Source of the DNA: a virus
IMG/VR virus record: IMGVR_UViG_3300017963_000541
Coordinates: 1 to 33,820 of that record
Strand: one strand, 5' to 3'
DNA: 33,820 bases
Shown here: one piece after another, positions 1-29,709 of the stretch
Numbering within the stretch: the stretch's first letter is position 1
Layout: every line of letters begins with the position of its first letter
Notes under the pieces: model-generated
Told to the model about the DNA's origin: nothing
Seen by the model: only the letters and a program-made list of their open reading frames with translations
Database searches by the model: none
Position numbers and translations under genes: made by a program

Positions 1-15
1 ATCTTGCGCGGAACC
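1..15. repeat. Terminal direct repeat, left copy (circular junction or cohesive end)
   Basis: The first 15 bases, ATCTTGCGCGGAACC, are identical to the last 15 bases of the window (33806-33820). This is seen directly. It means either that the contig closes into a circle of 33,805 bp, or that the virion DNA has short repeated or cohesive ends. The position about 130 bp upstream of the terminase start fits a cos or pac region as in lambda-like phages, but an assembly overlap would look the same. Confidence 0.8.
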
Positions 16-117
16 TGCCCTGCTCGCCACCGCCAAAAGATTCCTTTCCAATTTCCGACGCAGCAGGAGCGATCCTGGCGCGATTACGGTCCGTTCTCGT
101 GCCTGCGGGCTCATGAC

Positions 118-690
118 TGGCGGTTCGCAAGAGTTTATAACTCTAAGCCTGCGCCACGCCGTTAGGCTAAGGATCGAAGGGATAATAACTTTTTGATTCA
201 GCCTTGGCGGTAGGCTACGGGAGGAAGGAACAATAGCTGTAAGCTCTGGCGCTTCCGGTAAATTGGCGGGGGAGGCGGTAATAACTCTTCGTTGGTGCGC
301 GATCCGTAATTTACGGAGGGAGCGAACAATAACTTTAAGATCCGGCCCTTCCCGTAATTTACGAATCCAAGGAATAATAGTTCTTAATTTCGGCACGGTT
401 CGTAATTAATTGGATTAGCAAATAATAACTCTTAATCCAGGCGCTTCCCGTAAATTACGGGAGCAAGGAATAGTCTCGGTTAGAATTCGGCTCATCGGTA
501 ATTTACGGGAGGAAGGAACAATACCGCTAAGATCGGGCGCGGTTCGTAATTTACGGACTGAAGGCGGAATAACTCTTCGCTCGTGGCCGTGCGACAATTT
601 CCTGGAGGAAGGGACAATAACTCTTCGCTGGCGGCTGAACCGTAAATTGCGGACTGAAGCATCAATAGCTGTAAGATCTTCCGACACTGG
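118..690. repeat. Array of twelve tandem 48-bp repeats
   Basis: A degenerate motif (AATAACT or AATAGCT on the plus strand) recurs at 136, 184, 232, 280, 328, 376, 424, 469, 520, 568, 616 and 664. The spacing is 48 bp, with one 45/51 pair. Each unit has a purine-rich block (GGAGGAAGGAACAATAACT type) and a near-palindrome (CCGTAAATTACGG or its complement). Because 48 is a multiple of three, the minus strand reads as a 16-residue repeat, roughly LRVIVPSSRKLREAPD. Conserved bases include codon third positions, which favours recent duplication or a DNA-level site; several units keep amino-acid similarity despite divergence. There are no unique spacers of CRISPR type. Possible roles are an iteron or centromere-like binding array, a packaging-site array or a repeat-protein gene. 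Confidence 0.85.
415..687 (-). CDS. Possible repeat-encoded protein (16-residue repeats), doubtful
   Basis: A GTG start lies 3 nt after the TAA of the upstream 54-aa gene, so coupled translation is possible. The 90 codons read five to six 16-residue units with a consensus around VIVPSSRKLR. The frame is closed by a TAA at about 419-421 and a second TAA about four codons later. Downstream of that broken unit the same frame stays open through the remaining six units, across the sequence ends, to a stop near 33758. Either the gene is interrupted or the array is noncoding and the open frame is a by-product of the repeat. No known domain is recognised. The protein would be basic and without membrane segments. 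Confidence 0.3.
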   Translation of the reverse strand: MSEDLTAIDASVRNLRFSRQRRVIVPSSRKLSHGHERRVIPPSVRKLRTAPDLSGIVPSSRKLPMSRILTETIPCSRNLREAPGLRVIIC

Positions 691-855: not shown

Positions 856-869
856 GGGTGCTCGGAATC

Positions 870-1050
870 GCGGGAACAGAACGGAACCGGACGAATTGAG
901 CGGACGATTAGGAAGCGGCCAAGGTGCCGACAGGCAAGGCGGACGATTTGCCTTGCCTGTAAGGCACCAATTCGTCCGGTGTAGTTCCCGCGCCGAAAAC
1001 CGGACGATTGGACGATTTGTTTTGAAATCGTCCGGTGAAATCGTCCGGTG
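870..1050. other. Candidate replication origin: GGACGAWT iterons in nested inverted repeats
   Basis: This noncoding stretch between the 54-aa gene and the stop of the primase-helicase gene holds eight copies of a GGACGA(A/T)T motif, mostly within CCGGACGAWT. They lie at 887-897, 901-909, 940-949, 1000-1009 and 1010-1018 on plus, and at 969-979, 1025-1035 and 1038-1048 on minus. Nested inverted repeats are visible. GCGGGAAC (870-877) pairs with GTTCCCGC (984-991). CCGGACGAATT (887-897) pairs with AATTCGTCCGG (969-979). GGACGATTT (1010-1018) pairs with AAATCGTCC (1025-1033). Iterons beside the replicative helicase/primase gene are typical of phage and plasmid origins. The function is inferred; a promoter/operator cluster for downstream genes is the main alternative. 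Confidence 0.7.
923..968. other. Hairpin with an iteron in its loop
   Basis: GGTGCC (923-928) pairs with GGCACC (963-968), and inside it AGGCAAGG (932-939) pairs with CCTTGCCT (951-958). Short internal loops separate the two stems. The 11-base apical loop (940-950) contains a CGGACGATTTG iteron. The perfect two-step stem could extrude as a cruciform or fold in RNA or single-stranded DNA, for example as a priming or initiator-recognition structure. It has no U-run on either side, so it is not a typical terminator. Confidence 0.65.
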
Positions 1051-2982
1051 TCATTTCGTGCCATAATGACCCTTCTCATCCTTCTCGATATAGCCCTTTT
1101 CGACCATCCTTCTGAGCCGGCCTCTGACGGCTTCCACGTCCAGCGGGCAACGTCGGTTGTGAGCCTTTTGGAACAGTTCATCGAGCTTGTTATGGATTCC
1201 AGCAGGCTTGCCCGGTCCTTCCTTCAGTACCTGCAAGATCAGTGCATTGTCGATATCGGTTTTGGGTCCACGCTTGTGCTCTTCGAGTTCCGGCTTGTCG
1301 CACTGATGCCAGTAGAAACCGGATTCGGCTCGTTCGAGATAAATCCGATCTGTCAGTTCGTCTCCGTCTTCCCAACCGATCCGGTTTTGCCGTTTGCCGG
1401 CAATGAAGCTGTAGACGCCTGGAGTGTGCTTCCTGAGTTCGAGGGTAGCGCGAGGCCAGTTGGCGAACTCGACGCTTCCGTAGCCGGCGTACTCGCTTTC
1501 GTGCTCGCTCTTTGAGCTTGCGCGATTTCTGGGTGGATGGTGAACGACCATGACGCCGAGGTTGTAGTCTGTCGCCAAGACATCCAGGCCGCGTCTGACC
1601 CAGTTGTATGCGACGACGGGATCGGAGATATCACCGCCAGCATAAGCGAAATTGGGGTCGATGCATAAGATGTCGTAAGGCGTTTTGTCCAGTTTGGGTT
1701 TGATCGCTTGGTCAATGAAGCTCTGACCGCTGATGCCTTTGACGGTGTGCATGGCCCAATTCGAGTGCAGGCATGCTTCCTCGTCGCCCCGCAATCCGAG
1801 ATTGTCACAAACGCTTCTGACGAACCTGCGGAGGTCGATTTCCGGGTTTTCGTTCTGGATAGTGAGGATCTTGAGCGGTTTTCTGGGTCGCAGACCAAGG
1901 CAATGCCGTCCGATAGCGAAAGACATTGTCAACTGGAGCAGGAGGATGGACTTGCCGAGTCCAGTGCCTCCGGCGAAGAGCAACCCGGTGCTGCGGCAGA
2001 AGAATTCGTCTTTTATCAGTTCGACCTTTGCAACTTCCTCGTCTGAAACGGGTTGGAGCAACTGGTCGAGTGTGTGCTCGATATTGATGAAAGTCATTTC
2101 CTCCCCTTCTCGGGCATTATCCGCCCAGTAGAAGATGGAATTGACGGTGATCTTGTCGTGACCTGGCCTTTGATCGTCCGAAAACGCCTTTTCCCATTTC
2201 TGGCGGTAGACGGTCAGGGGAGTGACCTTGTAGGCGTCCACGCCGTGGGACCACTCGACCCAGAGTTTGAATCCCCATTCGTGGTCCCACCTGAACAGGG
2301 CCATGCCGACCTTGACCCAGTCCTCGTAAGTCTCAGCCATGCCCTGAATGCGGCTCAGAGCCTTTCTGAGGCGTTCTGTGTCGTTGGGAGGCAAATCTGG
2401 TGCTGGAGGTTTGTGGGAATCGTCAGGAGGCAACGTGAGCTTTGCTGGGACGGCATCCAGGTTGAGGTAAGCGTCTGGATCATGACAGAGGAAGGCTAAT
2501 CGAGCGAGATCGCCCTCGGTGTTGCCTCCTCTGTCGCCGCCGTAGCCTAAAGCCCGGAGTTTTCGGCCCATTTCCTGGACGTATTTGGTGTGTGTTGATG
2601 GTTTTGCGTTTTCCGGAAGGAGGAGGACGGCTTTGAGGCCGTCACCGGATGGGGACACGTAGACCAGGAGGCAACACGGCAGACTGACGATTTTCTCTCG
2701 GACACTGGGCAGTCTGTCGCCCAGGTCATCGAAATCGAATGCTGCCGCGTGTGAATATTCCAGCAAATGCGCCGCGGTACGTCTTCCGTTGAACAGACCG
2801 GCGAAGGTGACACCTGGGAGGGTGGTTTTCCGTTTCCGGAGTTCGTCTGGATTGGAGGCTTGGCGCACCCAAGCTGTCTGATTCTTGAGTGCGCCATCCT
2901 GGCGTATTTTGGCGACGATTTGCTGGAGTGATGCCTTGCTGACCTTCCGTGATTTGATATCTGGCTGATAAGTGAGCATCAT
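1051..2982 (-). CDS. Primase-helicase: VirE_N/PrimPol-like, PriCT-2-like and RepA-like ATPase domains
   Basis: This 643-aa protein probably primes and unwinds DNA at the phage origin. Residues about 10-180 look like a BT4734/VirE_N-type archaeo-eukaryotic primase module: AFDFDD near 81-86 would be the metal-binding D-x-D, SPSGDGLK near 110-117 the SGxG motif, and RLAF follows near 161. Residues about 198-290 resemble PriCT-2 (YEDWVKVGMALF, then QKWEKAFSDD). The C-terminal half is a RecA/RepA-like ATPase with Walker A GGTGLGKS (338-345) and a Walker B-like hydrophobic strand ending in CIDPN (about 440). A winged-helix-like tail follows. TTGGAG precedes the ATG. The gene ends immediately at the iteron region. 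No separate DNA polymerase or initiator is visible, so this protein may also initiate. Confidence 0.85.
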   Translation of the reverse strand: MMLTYQPDIKSRKVSKASLQQIVAKIRQDGALKNQTAWVRQASNPDELRKRKTTLPGVTFAGLFNGRRTAAHLLEYSHAAAFDFDDLGDRLPSVREKIVSLPCCLLVYVSPSGDGLKAVLLLPENAKPSTHTKYVQEMGRKLRALGYGGDRGGNTEGDLARLAFLCHDPDAYLNLDAVPAKLTLPPDDSHKPPAPDLPPNDTERLRKALSRIQGMAETYEDWVKVGMALFRWDHEWGFKLWVEWSHGVDAYKVTPLTVYRQKWEKAFSDDQRPGHDKITVNSIFYWADNAREGEEMTFINIEHTLDQLLQPVSDEEVAKVELIKDEFFCRSTGLLFAGGTGLGKSILLLQLTMSFAIGRHCLGLRPRKPLKILTIQNENPEIDLRRFVRSVCDNLGLRGDEEACLHSNWAMHTVKGISGQSFIDQAIKPKLDKTPYDILCIDPNFAYAGGDISDPVVAYNWVRRGLDVLATDYNLGVMVVHHPPRNRASSKSEHESEYAGYGSVEFANWPRATLELRKHTPGVYSFIAGKRQNRIGWEDGDELTDRIYLERAESGFYWHQCDKPELEEHKRGPKTDIDNALILQVLKEGPGKPAGIHNKLDELFQKAHNRRCPLDVEAVRGRLRRMVEKGYIEKDEKGHYGTK

Positions 2983-3471: not shown

Positions 3472-4105
3472 GAATGCTCCTGGAGGGCCATCCCGTTATT
3501 TGATTGAATACCGCCTCGGTCAGTCTGAGGTCGTTGTCGAGGTATTGGAGTGCTTGGTCCCGATGCTCGGCGTACACCGCGGAAAAGCGCGGGCCGATGT
3601 CGTCCTTAGCGGCGAACCCGCAGGCTATGCCGAGGTCGCGGAGGGATATCCTCTCGCCGTAGACGCCGCATGCCCAGATGAGCATTGTATCGTTGACCAT
3701 TGCGTCACGGCGCAGCCCTTCTCCGACCCATGACGGGACGTGTATGCCCAGGAGCATGGACCGACGAGCCAGGAACGGGAGGTCGAACCCGACGATGTTA
3801 TGGCCAACCAGAACGCATCCGGCATTATGGGCGCCGCGGATCCGCTCCCAAGCCCTGGGAAGCATGTCTTTTTCGGAACCTTCGAGGATTTCGACCGTGT
3901 CAGCCTGGAGCATCCCGATGCAGATGATCCGGCCTCTTTCGGCTCGCAAGGCGGATTCTGCCTTGTACTTTTCGGCTTTGTTTCTGAGATCCGCCTCGAT
4001 CTTGGTTTGATCCTTGAGGCGCTTGTCCGGTTCGATCTTGTGGCCCAGACGCTGGATCGCCTGATCGTCAGGCCCGGTCTCGATATCGAGGATGAGAGGT
4101 TTCAT
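3455..4105 (-). CDS. DnaQ-fold 3'-5' exonuclease (PolB-exonuclease-like)
   Basis: The 216-aa protein carries the three exonuclease motifs of the DEDD superfamily. ILDIETG at residues 4-10 is Exo I. GHNIVGFDLPFL near 100-112 is Exo II with its N and D. YLDNDLRLTEAV near 188-199 is Exo III. It therefore probably removes nucleotides from 3' ends as a stand-alone proofreading or recombination nuclease. A lysine- and glutamate-rich insertion (about 20-55) looks helical. It lies 2 nt after the SSB-like gene and overlaps the resolvase gene, so the three are co-translated DNA-metabolism genes. No polymerase domain is attached. Confidence 0.8.
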   Translation of the reverse strand: MKPLILDIETGPDDQAIQRLGHKIEPDKRLKDQTKIEADLRNKAEKYKAESALRAERGRIICIGMLQADTVEILEGSEKDMLPRAWERIRGAHNAGCVLVGHNIVGFDLPFLARRSMLLGIHVPSWVGEGLRRDAMVNDTMLIWACGVYGERISLRDLGIACGFAAKDDIGPRFSAVYAEHRDQALQYLDNDLRLTEAVFNQITGWPSRSIRDDEN

Positions 4106-4107
4106 GG

Positions 4108-4740
4108 TCAGAAAGGGATATCGTCTTCTTCCTTGTCATCGGAAGGCGCCGTGCTGGCCTCAGTTTCCTCTCTGACGGTTTGCGCGATGCCCTGGCTGGC
4201 TTTGTACTGTTCGCTTTCCTTCGCCACGTTCTGGACCCATTTAGGCACTGCGTCCCACGGGTGTTCGCCGGCAATCGCTTTCTCGACTTCCCAAGTGACA
4301 GGCGTCACGTCCTTCGTGTCCACCTTCACGGACTTCGGCACTTGCGCCACGCCGTTGACCTTGTCGTAAACCCGGCCATCGTCCCGTTTCTTGTGGATGA
4401 TGCTTACCGTACACGGTTTCCCGGCGATCTTGCGGAGGTCAAATCCGGCAAGCTCTTCGTCGGAGAACGACTTGCCGCGCCATGCTTCAAGGTGCTGACG
4501 CAGTGTCGCTCTCTCGTGCAGGCTGTTGGTGTATCTGCGGGAGGTGCTCATCGGCAGTTGTTCCTCGCCTATCGGATGATCCGGCAGGAGCCAGGACAGG
4601 ATCACTTGGTCCTTCTTCCCGAACTCGCCGTCCTGGGTTCCGACATCCGCGACCAGGCAGCAGACGCCAATGTGCGTGCCTTCCGGTGCGGGCGTGAAGT
4701 CGCCGGAAGCGTTTTCTGGTTCACGAGCGATCAATGACAT
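4108..4740 (-). CDS. Single-stranded DNA-binding-like protein with acidic SSB tail
   Basis: The 210-aa product ends in DDKEEDDIPF, the acidic C-terminal tip that in SSB proteins recruits partner enzymes. The N-terminal half (for example GTHIGVCCLVADVGTQ and QVILSWLLP) has the alternating strand pattern of an OB-fold and resembles phage SSB-like proteins. A longer frame upstream (to 4977) is rejected: the ATG at 4740 has a purine-rich site (AGAAGAAAG) at the right distance, and the extra N-terminal segment is arginine-rich and overlaps another gene. The gene leads the SSB-exonuclease-resolvase-helicase block. The role in coating single strands during replication is inferred from tail and context. 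Confidence 0.72.
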   Translation of the reverse strand: MSLIAREPENASGDFTPAPEGTHIGVCCLVADVGTQDGEFGKKDQVILSWLLPDHPIGEEQLPMSTSRRYTNSLHERATLRQHLEAWRGKSFSDEELAGFDLRKIAGKPCTVSIIHKKRDDGRVYDKVNGVAQVPKSVKVDTKDVTPVTWEVEKAIAGEHPWDAVPKWVQNVAKESEQYKASQGIAQTVREETEASTAPSDDKEEDDIPF

Positions 4741-4778
4741 GCTATTCTTTCTTCTGAGGGGTTTATGTTTTGGTGATG

Positions 4779-4805
4779 CCCGGAGGTTCGCAGTGAGCCT
4801 CCGGG
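4779..4805. other. Perfect 8-bp hairpin in an intergenic gap
   Basis: CCCGGAGG (4779-4786) pairs with CCTCCGGG (4798-4805) across an 11-base loop, in the gap between the 77-aa gene and the SSB-like gene. On the plus strand it is followed by TTATTGTTT, and on the minus strand by a C/A-rich stretch. It is therefore not a classical terminator for the minus-strand operon. Partial attenuation, mRNA processing or stability control of the downstream SSB gene is possible. Confidence 0.5.
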
Positions 4806-4813
4806 TTATTGTT

Positions 4814-5247: not shown

Positions 5248-5327
5248 TGAAGAAAGGCGCCCGCCAACGTTATGCCTCCGGTATATGCCAGAGATGAGGA
5301 ACCGGACGATGACGGGACGCCAGAGTG

Positions 5328-5923: not shown

Positions 5924-6139
5924 TCACCTAGTCTCAGTGTGAGGAGATGTCGGTGCAGACGATGAATTGTCCGTGGAACCGGACGAATGGCCGCACCGCG
6001 CCCGAAAGTCTGTCTGGAGGAGCCGCAGAGCACTCAGTCGAGCAGTCCAGCGTTCCCTCTCATCAATTGTCAAAGAGGAGTTCATGCCGTCCACCGCGGC
6101 GTCAATGTGCTGACCGAGAACGACATAGAACTCATTCAT
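5924..6139 (-). CDS. Small hypothetical protein (71 aa)
   Basis: A 71-aa product starts at 6139 (MNEFYVVLG), where ATG shares its first base with the TAA of the upstream gene (TAATG). This tight coupling decides the start against a longer frame to 6232. The first 50 residues look helical (HIDAAVDGMNSSLTIDERE, then WTARLSALRLLQTDF). The last 20 residues are Ser/Thr-rich and probably disordered. No family is recognised. The gene carries one copy of the CCGGACGAAT motif of the origin candidate at 5979-5988, which may be chance. Confidence 0.5.
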   Translation of the reverse strand: MNEFYVVLGQHIDAAVDGMNSSLTIDERERWTARLSALRLLQTDFRARCGHSSGSTDNSSSAPTSPHTETR

Positions 6140-6596: not shown

Positions 6597-7022
6597 TCAT
6601 GGTGCGCAAGGTGCTAAAAGTCTGCGTCTGATGGCCTTGGTCAGTTCCCGCACGTCGTAGTCCCACCGGGAATCGGTGAGTTCAGCGGCATGAATGCTCG
6701 TGAGCGGGAGCAGTATCTCCGGCAGTTCACGAGGCATACATGCGCCGTCCACGAGTACCGGGAAGGTCGGCACCTCGTGTTCCCACGATGCTTTGAGTTC
6801 GATCTGGATGATCTCCGAGGCTTTCCACCGTGGACCGATGACACAGAGCATGGCCTGCGAGGTCCGTATATGGCCCACAATCGCCTTCAGCCAGTCCTCC
6901 CCTGCGCTGATACCCGACAGGTCGTGGAAAGGCAGGAAAGAGCTTTTAAGGCTCTGCACGAGCCTACCGGCGTGACCGGAGGAATCGTGACGGTGATAGC
7001 TGATGAAGACCTTGGGTTTCAT
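6597..7022 (-). CDS. TIR-domain protein
   Basis: The 141-aa protein is a single TIR domain. KVFISYHRHDSSGHAGRL at residues 4-21 is the box-1 strand and following helix, ISAGEDWLKAIVGHI near 38-52 is the BB-loop/helix region, and AMLCVIGPRW near 57-66 is the fourth strand. IQIEL near 72-76 then places a conserved Glu (E75) where NAD-cleaving TIR domains have their catalytic residue. TFPVLVDGACMP completes the fold. Bacterial TIR domains bind or hydrolyse NAD+, often in defence or counter-defence. No sensor domain is fused here, so a partner or a decoy role is possible. Its ATG overlaps the dcm stop (ATGA), so it is co-translated with the methyltransferase. Confidence 0.8.
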   Translation of the reverse strand: MKPKVFISYHRHDSSGHAGRLVQSLKSSFLPFHDLSGISAGEDWLKAIVGHIRTSQAMLCVIGPRWKASEIIQIELKASWEHEVPTFPVLVDGACMPRELPEILLPLTSIHAAELTDSRWDYDVRELTKAIRRRLLAPCAP

Positions 7023-27543: not shown

Positions 27544-29709
27544 TTAAGCGGTTGTGATTCTCTCCAAGGCGGCACCCTGCGCCACGGCAACGCCGAACAG
27601 GTTCGCCACTGAGAACATATGAAGGCCGGTCGTCCAGTCGTACCAAGTCCGGAACTGCATCGGGATCATGGACACAGGATCCACGACGTTTTGAACCTGA
27701 CCGCCGGGTTGCTCCGGATTCAGCGGAACACGAGCGGCAGCCGCCATTGCGCTTTGATGCAGACACACCGCACCGAGGTTCTCTGAGTTGTCCGGGACCG
27801 CGGAAACCTCGTACATGGCAAACCCACGAGCGCGAGGAACGACCAACTCACGAATCGGATCAGTTGACCCGTATGCGCTGGCATCGGAAACGACTGAGGT
27901 CTTGCCAACCCCGGCATAGTAATCGGGAGGCAGAATCGCGGAACGGTTTTGCCTCGGACATTTGGCCGCACTCAGTGCCGCTGAGACATCCGCCAGGACA
28001 TCGGCATCAAAGTTCGCCGCCGTGCTGACCGTGTTGCTGCTGTAATTGGCAGCCACGACAAGAGTCCAAATAGCATCCCAGATCGGTTGCGACAGACCCT
28101 CAACCATCGGCTCAACGAATGTATCACGGAACATCCGCGGCCCGCCACTGAACGCATTATCAACGTCGTCAATGCCGATTGAGACATTGTTGTTGACTGT
28201 GAACGTCACACTGACCGCCGTGCTTGTCGCATCAATGGCAGCGTAACCGGCGGTCTTGATCGCCTGCGCTGAAATCGCGGAAGCAATCCTTGTCGTGACA
28301 CCGTCACCGGCACTGGCGCCCTGCGGCAGGAAGTTTTTGCTGATCGCATTCAACGGAGCAAACGATGCACCGAGGTAATCAACAGCCGCGGCACTGATCA
28401 CCGTCGTCCACATTCCACCAAGAGTGTTGGCGTTGCGAAACTGCTGAATCGGGTCACGGACACCGCGGAACGATTTGACCGTTGCCGCAAGAGACTCATG
28501 AACCTCCTCACGATTCTGCGCGTAAAACTTCCTCCGGGACGCTAGCGAAGCAATCGCCTGCATTTCCTGGATGGAAGTACCACGAGCAATTGCGCGCCCG
28601 ATGCTCACCGGGTCGGAACCAACCGAACCTTTGATGCTGCCCAGAAGTCTCTGCGCTTTCGCGAAGTCCTCCACGGCATCACTGATCCAGGTGTCCCGAT
28701 CTTCAGCGGTGATCTTGCCAGCCTCAACCGCTTCGTCCACGAGACGGCCAGCGCGATCCTTCTTGAGTTCCTCAAGTTCTTTGGCTTGCTGCGCCAATTC
28801 GTTCTTGATCTTGCTATCCACCGCGGGCTTCGGCGCCTCGGTGGCCTTGTTCTCGACTTGTTCAGTCGTCTTTGGCGGATCAACCAACGGCAAATCCGCC
28901 TGATTTGTTTCGTTCATGTCAGGTTTCCGTTTTGCGGATTGATCCGCTTTTGGTTTCGCATCGCCCTCCGCACTCACGGGAGCGTTACGGAAATTCTTCA
29001 AGTCAACACCCTGGATCAGAACAACCGCATCATCGGATGCCTCGGTCACCGTATCGACGAATCCTTCATCCTTCGCCTGCCGTGCGGTGTACCATGTTTC
29101 GTCCGCCATGCGTTGTTTGATCGTCTCGGTTTCCATGCCGGTCTTGAGTTCGTATACGCCGGCAATCTGATCCCGGATCTTGTCCAGTGCTTGAGCCGTC
29201 TTCTGATGATCCTTGGAAGTGCCGATAGTCATGCCGGAAGGATCGTGAATCATCAGCATGGTATTCTCCGGCGCTTGCACTTCTTCACCGGCCATAGCAA
29301 TCACCGAGGCAATGCTCGCGGCGATACCGTCAATCCGAGTCGTGACGTTCTTACGACGGTTCAGAGCATTGTAAATCGCCAAACCCTCGAACACGTCACC
29401 GCCTCCGGAATTGATGCCTACGGTGATCTGCCGTCCACCAGGAATCTTATTCAACTCACCGATGAACTCCTTAGCGGTCACACCGTTAATCCCGATTTCG
29501 TCCATGATCAGGACTTCATGCGACCCATCGGCCTGATCGGTGAACTTAAACCATTTCGCACTCATGTTTCTCTGTTCCCACTGGGTTTGACAAACCGCTC
29601 TGCGCTGTGAGGTATCCGGAAACTCGGTCGTCATGACCCCGTCACCCATGCAACGCTGAATAAACTCGTTTTCACGCTCACCACTGTTTGGAGTCGGAAT
29701 CGGCATCAA
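27544..29709 (-). CDS. ClpP-like prohead protease fused to major capsid protein (721 aa)
   Basis: Residues about 50-230 are a ClpP-type serine protease: INSGGGDVFEG (99-109), GIAASIASVI with catalytic Ser near 132, and MLMIHDPSG with His near 155. A Lys/Glu/Pro-rich linker with coiled coil (about 240-340) looks like a scaffold. Residues about 395-721 are a HK97-fold capsid domain. Protease, scaffold and capsid are usually separate or at most pairwise fused; here they form one frame. An internal ATG (residue 265, base 28917) preceded by GGAAAC could give a separate scaffold-capsid chain. Self-cleavage during head maturation is expected. The N-terminal 45 residues (PNSGERENEFIQRCM) resemble a prohead-protease-associated segment. 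Confidence 0.85.
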   Translation of the reverse strand: MMPIPTPNSGERENEFIQRCMGDGVMTTEFPDTSQRRAVCQTQWEQRNMSAKWFKFTDQADGSHEVLIMDEIGINGVTAKEFIGELNKIPGGRQITVGINSGGGDVFEGLAIYNALNRRKNVTTRIDGIAASIASVIAMAGEEVQAPENTMLMIHDPSGMTIGTSKDHQKTAQALDKIRDQIAGVYELKTGMETETIKQRMADETWYTARQAKDEGFVDTVTEASDDAVVLIQGVDLKNFRNAPVSAEGDAKPKADQSAKRKPDMNETNQADLPLVDPPKTTEQVENKATEAPKPAVDSKIKNELAQQAKELEELKKDRAGRLVDEAVEAGKITAEDRDTWISDAVEDFAKAQRLLGSIKGSVGSDPVSIGRAIARGTSIQEMQAIASLASRRKFYAQNREEVHESLAATVKSFRGVRDPIQQFRNANTLGGMWTTVISAAAVDYLGASFAPLNAISKNFLPQGASAGDGVTTRIASAISAQAIKTAGYAAIDATSTAVSVTFTVNNNVSIGIDDVDNAFSGGPRMFRDTFVEPMVEGLSQPIWDAIWTLVVAANYSSNTVSTAANFDADVLADVSAALSAAKCPRQNRSAILPPDYYAGVGKTSVVSDASAYGSTDPIRELVVPRARGFAMYEVSAVPDNSENLGAVCLHQSAMAAAARVPLNPEQPGGQVQNVVDPVSMIPMQFRTWYDWTTGLHMFSVANLFGVAVAQGAALERITTA

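Follow-up and report, generated by a model that had tools for sequence, protein, structure and literature searches.

An iteron cluster set in a nested palindrome behind a phage primase-helicase gene as a probable replication origin

In Staphylococcus aureus pathogenicity islands (SaPIs) the C-terminal domain of the Rep protein recognises iterons directly downstream of its own gene (PMC7581432), and the same gene-then-origin layout is found in the pri-rep-ori module of phage-inducible chromosomal islands (PICIs) (PMC6092414). In PICIs an AT-rich melting region lies between the iteron sets. For the Cch2 helicase of the staphylococcal cassette chromosome mec (SCCmec), too, the binding sites are direct repeats that follow its gene, the inverted repeats being dispensable for binding (PMC7581432). 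Replication of pRN1 depends on a stem-loop of 100 nt that follows orf904, and the phages BIP-1/BPP-1 were proposed to be similar (PMC4234260). Here we describe a locus of this general layout in the IMG/VR virus contig IMGVR_UViG_3300017963_000541 (33,820 bp, classed as linear), which was analysed over its full length (positions 1-33,820; hereafter "the window"). At positions 870-1050 a cluster of short iterons lies directly behind the gene of a primase-helicase, and we consider it likely that this element is the replication origin of the phage, or its core, with the iterons following the gene of their own initiator (Table 1).

The motif GGACGAWT is present eight times without mismatch and in both orientations, packed into 158 bp. 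Only three further exact matches occur in the 33.8 kb (3.7 are expected for the whole record) and these are background; no copies with one mismatch exist within 600-1400. The densest 160 bp contain eight copies as against at most two in 200 dinucleotide shuffles. Chance was rejected as an explanation of the cluster, as was coding sequence. The original prediction of eight copies in both orientations is confirmed. For any 8-mer, the densest 160 bp contain six copies against at most three in 60 shuffles, and when the whole record was ranked the region had the top score for repeats and for fold alike. Read in the direction of the gene, the order is two forward, two reverse, one forward and three reverse copies, with direct spacings of 12-13 bp and inverted-pair spacings of 6-8 bp near the stop codon, which resemble those of L144, L147 and L148 (see below). 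The nearest iteron lies 4 nt past the primase-helicase stop codon, as in SaPI/PICI pri-rep-ori, where the origin is likewise directly 3' of an initiator helicase gene. Two additional copies of GGAACCGGACGA had been predicted in the early operon, at about 5298 and 5976; both are exact, at 5298 between genes and at 5975 probably within coding sequence, with 0.38 matches expected even if one mismatch is allowed. Such outlying copies, one of them shortly upstream of a gene start, would suit an operator or partition (centromere-like) cluster by which a small DNA-binding protein of the early region represses early transcription or segregates the DNA, the copies at 5298 and 5975 serving as satellite operators; direct spacing of 13 bp with inverted copies is also seen in many operators. 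We regard this as quite unlikely: the operon's last large gene precedes the cluster, no promoter-like site was found nearby, no small regulator with a convincing match was found, and the clusters of relatives (see below) are tied to the primase stop.

The cluster coincides with two nested hairpins, A and B in Table 1, that comprise six perfect stems with 58 pairs and not a single G-T pair. Both the motif-bearing arms (886-897/969-980, 999-1009/1039-1049 and 1010-1018/1025-1033) and the three further inverted-repeat pairs without motif (869-877/984-992, 923-928/963-968 and 930-940/950-960) are exact throughout. The latter three had been predicted, as had a stepped hairpin displaying the motif in its loop, which we recover in the 9-nt loop 941-949 (GGACGATTT). 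The DNA fold of the 211 bases 860-1070 has -70.7 kcal/mol compared to -34.3 +/- 3.4 for shuffles (z-score -10.6), the lowest z-score among 449 windows of the record. With all eight motifs scrambled the mean z-score is still -4.9 (range -8.9 to -1.9), so the palindrome exceeds the paired motifs and the extra stems are real. The transcript strand folds as well (-105 kcal/mol, z-score -10) and four U follow hairpin B, as would be expected of an RNA element or terminator that ends the leftward early operon and in which the motif copies are merely the arms of a stable RNA hairpin. This explanation is most improbable, since no Rfam match and no terminator call were obtained, G-U pairs are absent from the 58 pairs of the six stems (more like DNA symmetry), the motif copies at 902 and 941 are unpaired, and relatives keep the iterons and mostly not the fold. 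An Rfam RNA and a simple terminator were both rejected.

Of immediate interest as the binder of the iterons is the primase-helicase itself, which matches BT4734_N (3.9e-17) and PriCT_2 (3.4e-11) and carries AAA_25 as its motor domain. Its last ~65 residues resemble a winged helix and form a candidate iteron-binding domain: they have a weak Cullin_Nedd8 winged-helix match, a Foldseek search with the modelled C-terminus returned mostly winged-helix domains as best matches (none significant), and the C-termini of relatives give a weak profile match to that of the window protein. We infer that this domain would bind GGACGAWT in both orientations, with several monomers assembling on the cluster. 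The AAA_25 motor would open the DNA, possibly aided as the two nested hairpins are extruded; synthesis of the first primers by the primase domain at the N-terminus would follow. The iterons may instead be bound by the NGO0469-like protein encoded at 4108-4740, or by another phage protein, with the primase-helicase loaded later, much like the division of work among RepC, RepA and RepB' in RSF1010. The NCBIfam family in question is named for phage replication initiation and is matched at E = 1e-46; its gene, however, is 3 kb off, and the iterons follow the primase-helicase gene in every lineage that has them 3' of it, which makes this division of labour unlikely.

Relatives were sought along several routes. 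A blast search with the element and with the array at the left end of the window (see below) gave no match among phages and plasmids. Scans of viral contigs for exact motif pairs gave 33 and 13 matches, mostly single pairs and no comparable cluster, which we take as chance. Single-protein scans with the window primase and with its terminase gave no match either. One alignment (A2) was too diverse to serve as a scan query; scan A3 yielded at least 80 loci. Three loci from a scan of bacterial genomes were left unused, having no primase open reading frame (ORF) with the expected domains. For 31 distinct BT4734_N phage loci with sufficient DNA, the 300 bp that surround the primase stop were ranked among 11,247 windows. 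In two loci of a second BT4734_N lineage, L101 and L082, they fall in the top 1%, and indeed in the top 0.1%, both times by virtue of the motif TGTCAAA: at each locus, eight copies lie in both orientations no more than ~280 bp from the primase stop, compared to three (L101) and one (L082) elsewhere in ~10 kb. A narrower scan led to the family of L144, whose primases carry BT4734_N and AAA_25 and in which the C-terminus of L144 matches MarR_2/TrmB. The primases of L144, L147 and L148 are mutually 62-79% identical and share a conserved C-terminal domain together with one common iteron, TCTTGCA, in nine, seven and nine copies, respectively. The first copy begins 2-5 nt past the primase stop, and the order is four forward, two reverse, then two or more forward. 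The C-terminus of L058, a relative of these three, has diverged, and a cluster of this kind is missing there. In the window and in the three records of L144, L147 and L148 (G001-G003), short repeats are nowhere denser than in the cluster 3' of the primase gene. As to the search for the motif in related phages, suggested in the original prediction, no cluster comparable to that of GGACGAWT was found in phages, plasmids or viral contigs, and the distant relatives have clusters of other motifs in the same place, each lineage its own.

These relatives also bear on the idea of a packaging site (cos/pac, or binding sites of the small terminase subunit), which would lie between the replication genes and the terminase if the record circularises. 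The terminase is indeed at the other end of the contig, and terminase-looking ORFs are found by eye 1.8-2.9 kb downstream in L082 and L101. Downstream of the L144 iterons, however, lie a DNA methyltransferase gene and then another methyltransferase-like gene, not a terminase, with similar genes (by eye) after those of L147 and L148, and no relative of the window terminase is detectable in the genomes of this family. Since the clusters begin at the primase stop whatever gene comes next, they track the primase-helicase gene rather than packaging genes, and a packaging site is very unlikely. L058 had been considered as a primase beside a terminase and was rejected, its downstream gene being by eye the counterpart of the methyltransferase-like gene of L144. 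As to the fold, the z-scores are -2.3 in L144, -3.1 in L147, -4.4 in L148 (a two-step hairpin), -6.0 in L082 (a hairpin without motif) and -0.6 in L101; the AT fraction of the inter-iteron gap is 0.69-0.74 in L148, L082 and L101, 0.60 in L144 and 0.52 in L147. The hairpin of L082 (5752-5815) is strong, with 20-bp arms, and sits in the AT-rich gap between two TGTCAAA sets. In L094, at least five tandem 11-bp iteron-like repeats (ATGAACAACC) occur at 3804-3887, ~370-450 bp upstream of another BT4734_N primase gene, so that in this lineage the repeats are 5' rather than 3' of the gene.

Compared with the described systems, the element shares with SaPI/PICI pri-rep-ori the possession of several short iterons (eight exact ones here), and these would likewise be read by the C-terminal domain of the helicase. 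It differs in that two iteron sets flank an AT-rich region in the islands, which are satellites, whereas the window belongs to a tailed phage that encodes capsid and terminase itself. The putative origin of SCCmec, like the element in the window, has repeats and inverted repeats shortly behind the helicase gene, and Cch2 binds there, as the primase-helicase would in the window; it differs in having only three iterons and in that its inverted repeats are dispensable for binding (PMC7581432). ORF904 of pRN1 and the BIP-1/BPP-1 proteins unite primase-polymerase, helicase and winged helix, and a large stem-loop lies 3' of the gene (PMC4234260). The window resembles them in this stem-loop (the fold described above being the lowest of its record), and, like BPP-1, it combines an archaeo-eukaryotic primase with PriCT_2. 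Their helicase is of superfamily 3 (SF3, D5-like; D5_N in BPP-1) in contrast to AAA_25 in the window, and the pRN1 stem-loop is without iterons; in the 250 nt that follow the BPP-1 gene, the fold is no stronger than in shuffled sequence. The alpha protein of phage P4 combines priming, unwinding and the winged-helix binding of short repeats in a single polypeptide (as cited in PMC4234260), as is proposed here; its primase is of the bacterial Toprim type and its helicase is different. The oriV of RSF1010 (IncQ), with ssiA/ssiB, is comparable in having iterons together with single-strand hairpins that a primase of archaeo-eukaryotic type recognises (PMC4234260, PMC4434180), although there the work is done by three separate proteins with one 40-nt hairpin site per strand. 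The element would resemble a SaPI/PICI or a pRN1 origin in its working and is a member of neither, because it has no AT-rich region between its iterons, does not belong to a satellite and has no SF3 helicase beside it. What is new is best described as a probable iteron origin that is GC-rich, is packed into a nested palindrome and follows the gene of a primase-helicase of the BT4734_N/AAA_25 type.

Several points weigh against an origin served by the primase-helicase. A strong cluster 3' of the primase gene is missing from 29 of the 31 distant BT4734_N loci, and the motifs of the different lineages are unrelated, which leaves no common site to align between them. The widest inter-iteron gap of the window has an AT fraction of 0.32, and the AT-rich melting region that PICIs and most of the relatives have between iteron sets is absent there. 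The winged helix is suggested by two AlphaFold2 models with the HHH-EE topology at low confidence (predicted local distance difference test scores of 41 and 56), and a separate protein, of the NGO0469 family, is annotated as a replication initiation protein. Finally, GC skew, which the original prediction had proposed as a check, is uninformative: the cumulative skew has its minimum at the contig ends (~1 kb from the cluster) and its maximum near 7.2 kb, and neither supports nor refutes an origin, because circularity is unproven and in the relatives the skew does not turn at the iterons; gene modules confound it in the window and the relatives alike. With these reservations, the origin beside the primase-helicase gene, as originally predicted, is supported by its position, the clusters of relatives and the published replicons. 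The accompanying notion that the initiator recognises a looped motif is not supported, given the weak folds in iteron-bearing relatives (z-scores of -2.3 to -4.4) and the dispensable inverted repeats of Cch2; it may nevertheless apply, since pRN1 depends on its stem-loop (PMC4234260). A cruciform-type iteron origin, in which initiator sites set in the stems, bulge and loop of one nested palindrome couple binding, extrusion and single-strand display of the motif and so replace the AT-rich melting region, is a tentative and rather doubtful extension.

Table 1. Coordinates of the origin candidate and associated features in the window.
Feature	Position	Strand	Description
Degenerate 48-bp-period array	1..690		centred on palindrome CGTAAWTTACG
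Hairpin A	869..992		four nested perfect stems: 9, 12, 6, 11 bp
Iteron cluster	889..1046		exact GGACGAWT, n = 8: 889+, 902+, 941+, 970-, 1002+, 1010+, 1026-, 1039-
Hairpin B	999..1049		two-step stem, 11 + 9 bp, made of four motif copies
643-aa primase-helicase	1051..2982	-	BT4734_N primase domain, PriCT_2, AAA_25 ATPase
Candidate iteron-binding domain	1054..1245	-	C-terminal ~64 residues of primase-helicase; predicted winged helix (HHH-EE)
NGO0469-family "phage replication initiation" protein	4108..4740	-	NF046043, E = 1e-46; alternative candidate iteron binder
Extra GGAACCGGACGA copy	5298..5309	+	intergenic, 51-62 bp upstream of the start of a 67-aa ORF
Extra copy GGAACCGGACGAAT	5975..5988	+	identical to 883-896; probably inside small coding sequence

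The array at the left end has an exact period of 48 bp without insertions or deletions over at least 11 units, and one frame per strand is nearly open (16-aa period). It includes the most AT-rich 40-mer of the whole record (~397-436), ~450 bp beyond the cluster; no Pfam match was found, nor anything similar in viral contigs, and a role as melting region or part of the origin is speculative. Most genes of the record, all structural ones included, are directed leftward. The operon of the primase-helicase also encodes Holliday-junction-resolvase-like, 3'-5' exonuclease-like and NGO0469-family proteins, and between two leftward genes a 13-bp terminator-like hairpin is present at 4778-4806 in + strand orientation. 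The early region further contains a TIR-domain protein (6597-7022, - strand; TIR_2 4e-14, weak ThsB_TIR), and a short rightward gene block at ~10.7-12.4 kb includes a membrane protein that ends in a superinfection immunity domain (PF14373; 11785-12351, + strand). Terminase, portal and protease/capsid genes are the phage's own, the terminase at the contig end opposite to the cluster; a ClpP-like protease for head maturation, which seems to be fused with the major capsid protein (27544-29709, - strand), has its best-matching phage record in Verrucomicrobia phage P8625.

The origins of most metagenomic phages are unknown. The copy in the window would offer a direct test case for initiators that would use a GC-rich palindrome in place of an AT-rich melting region.
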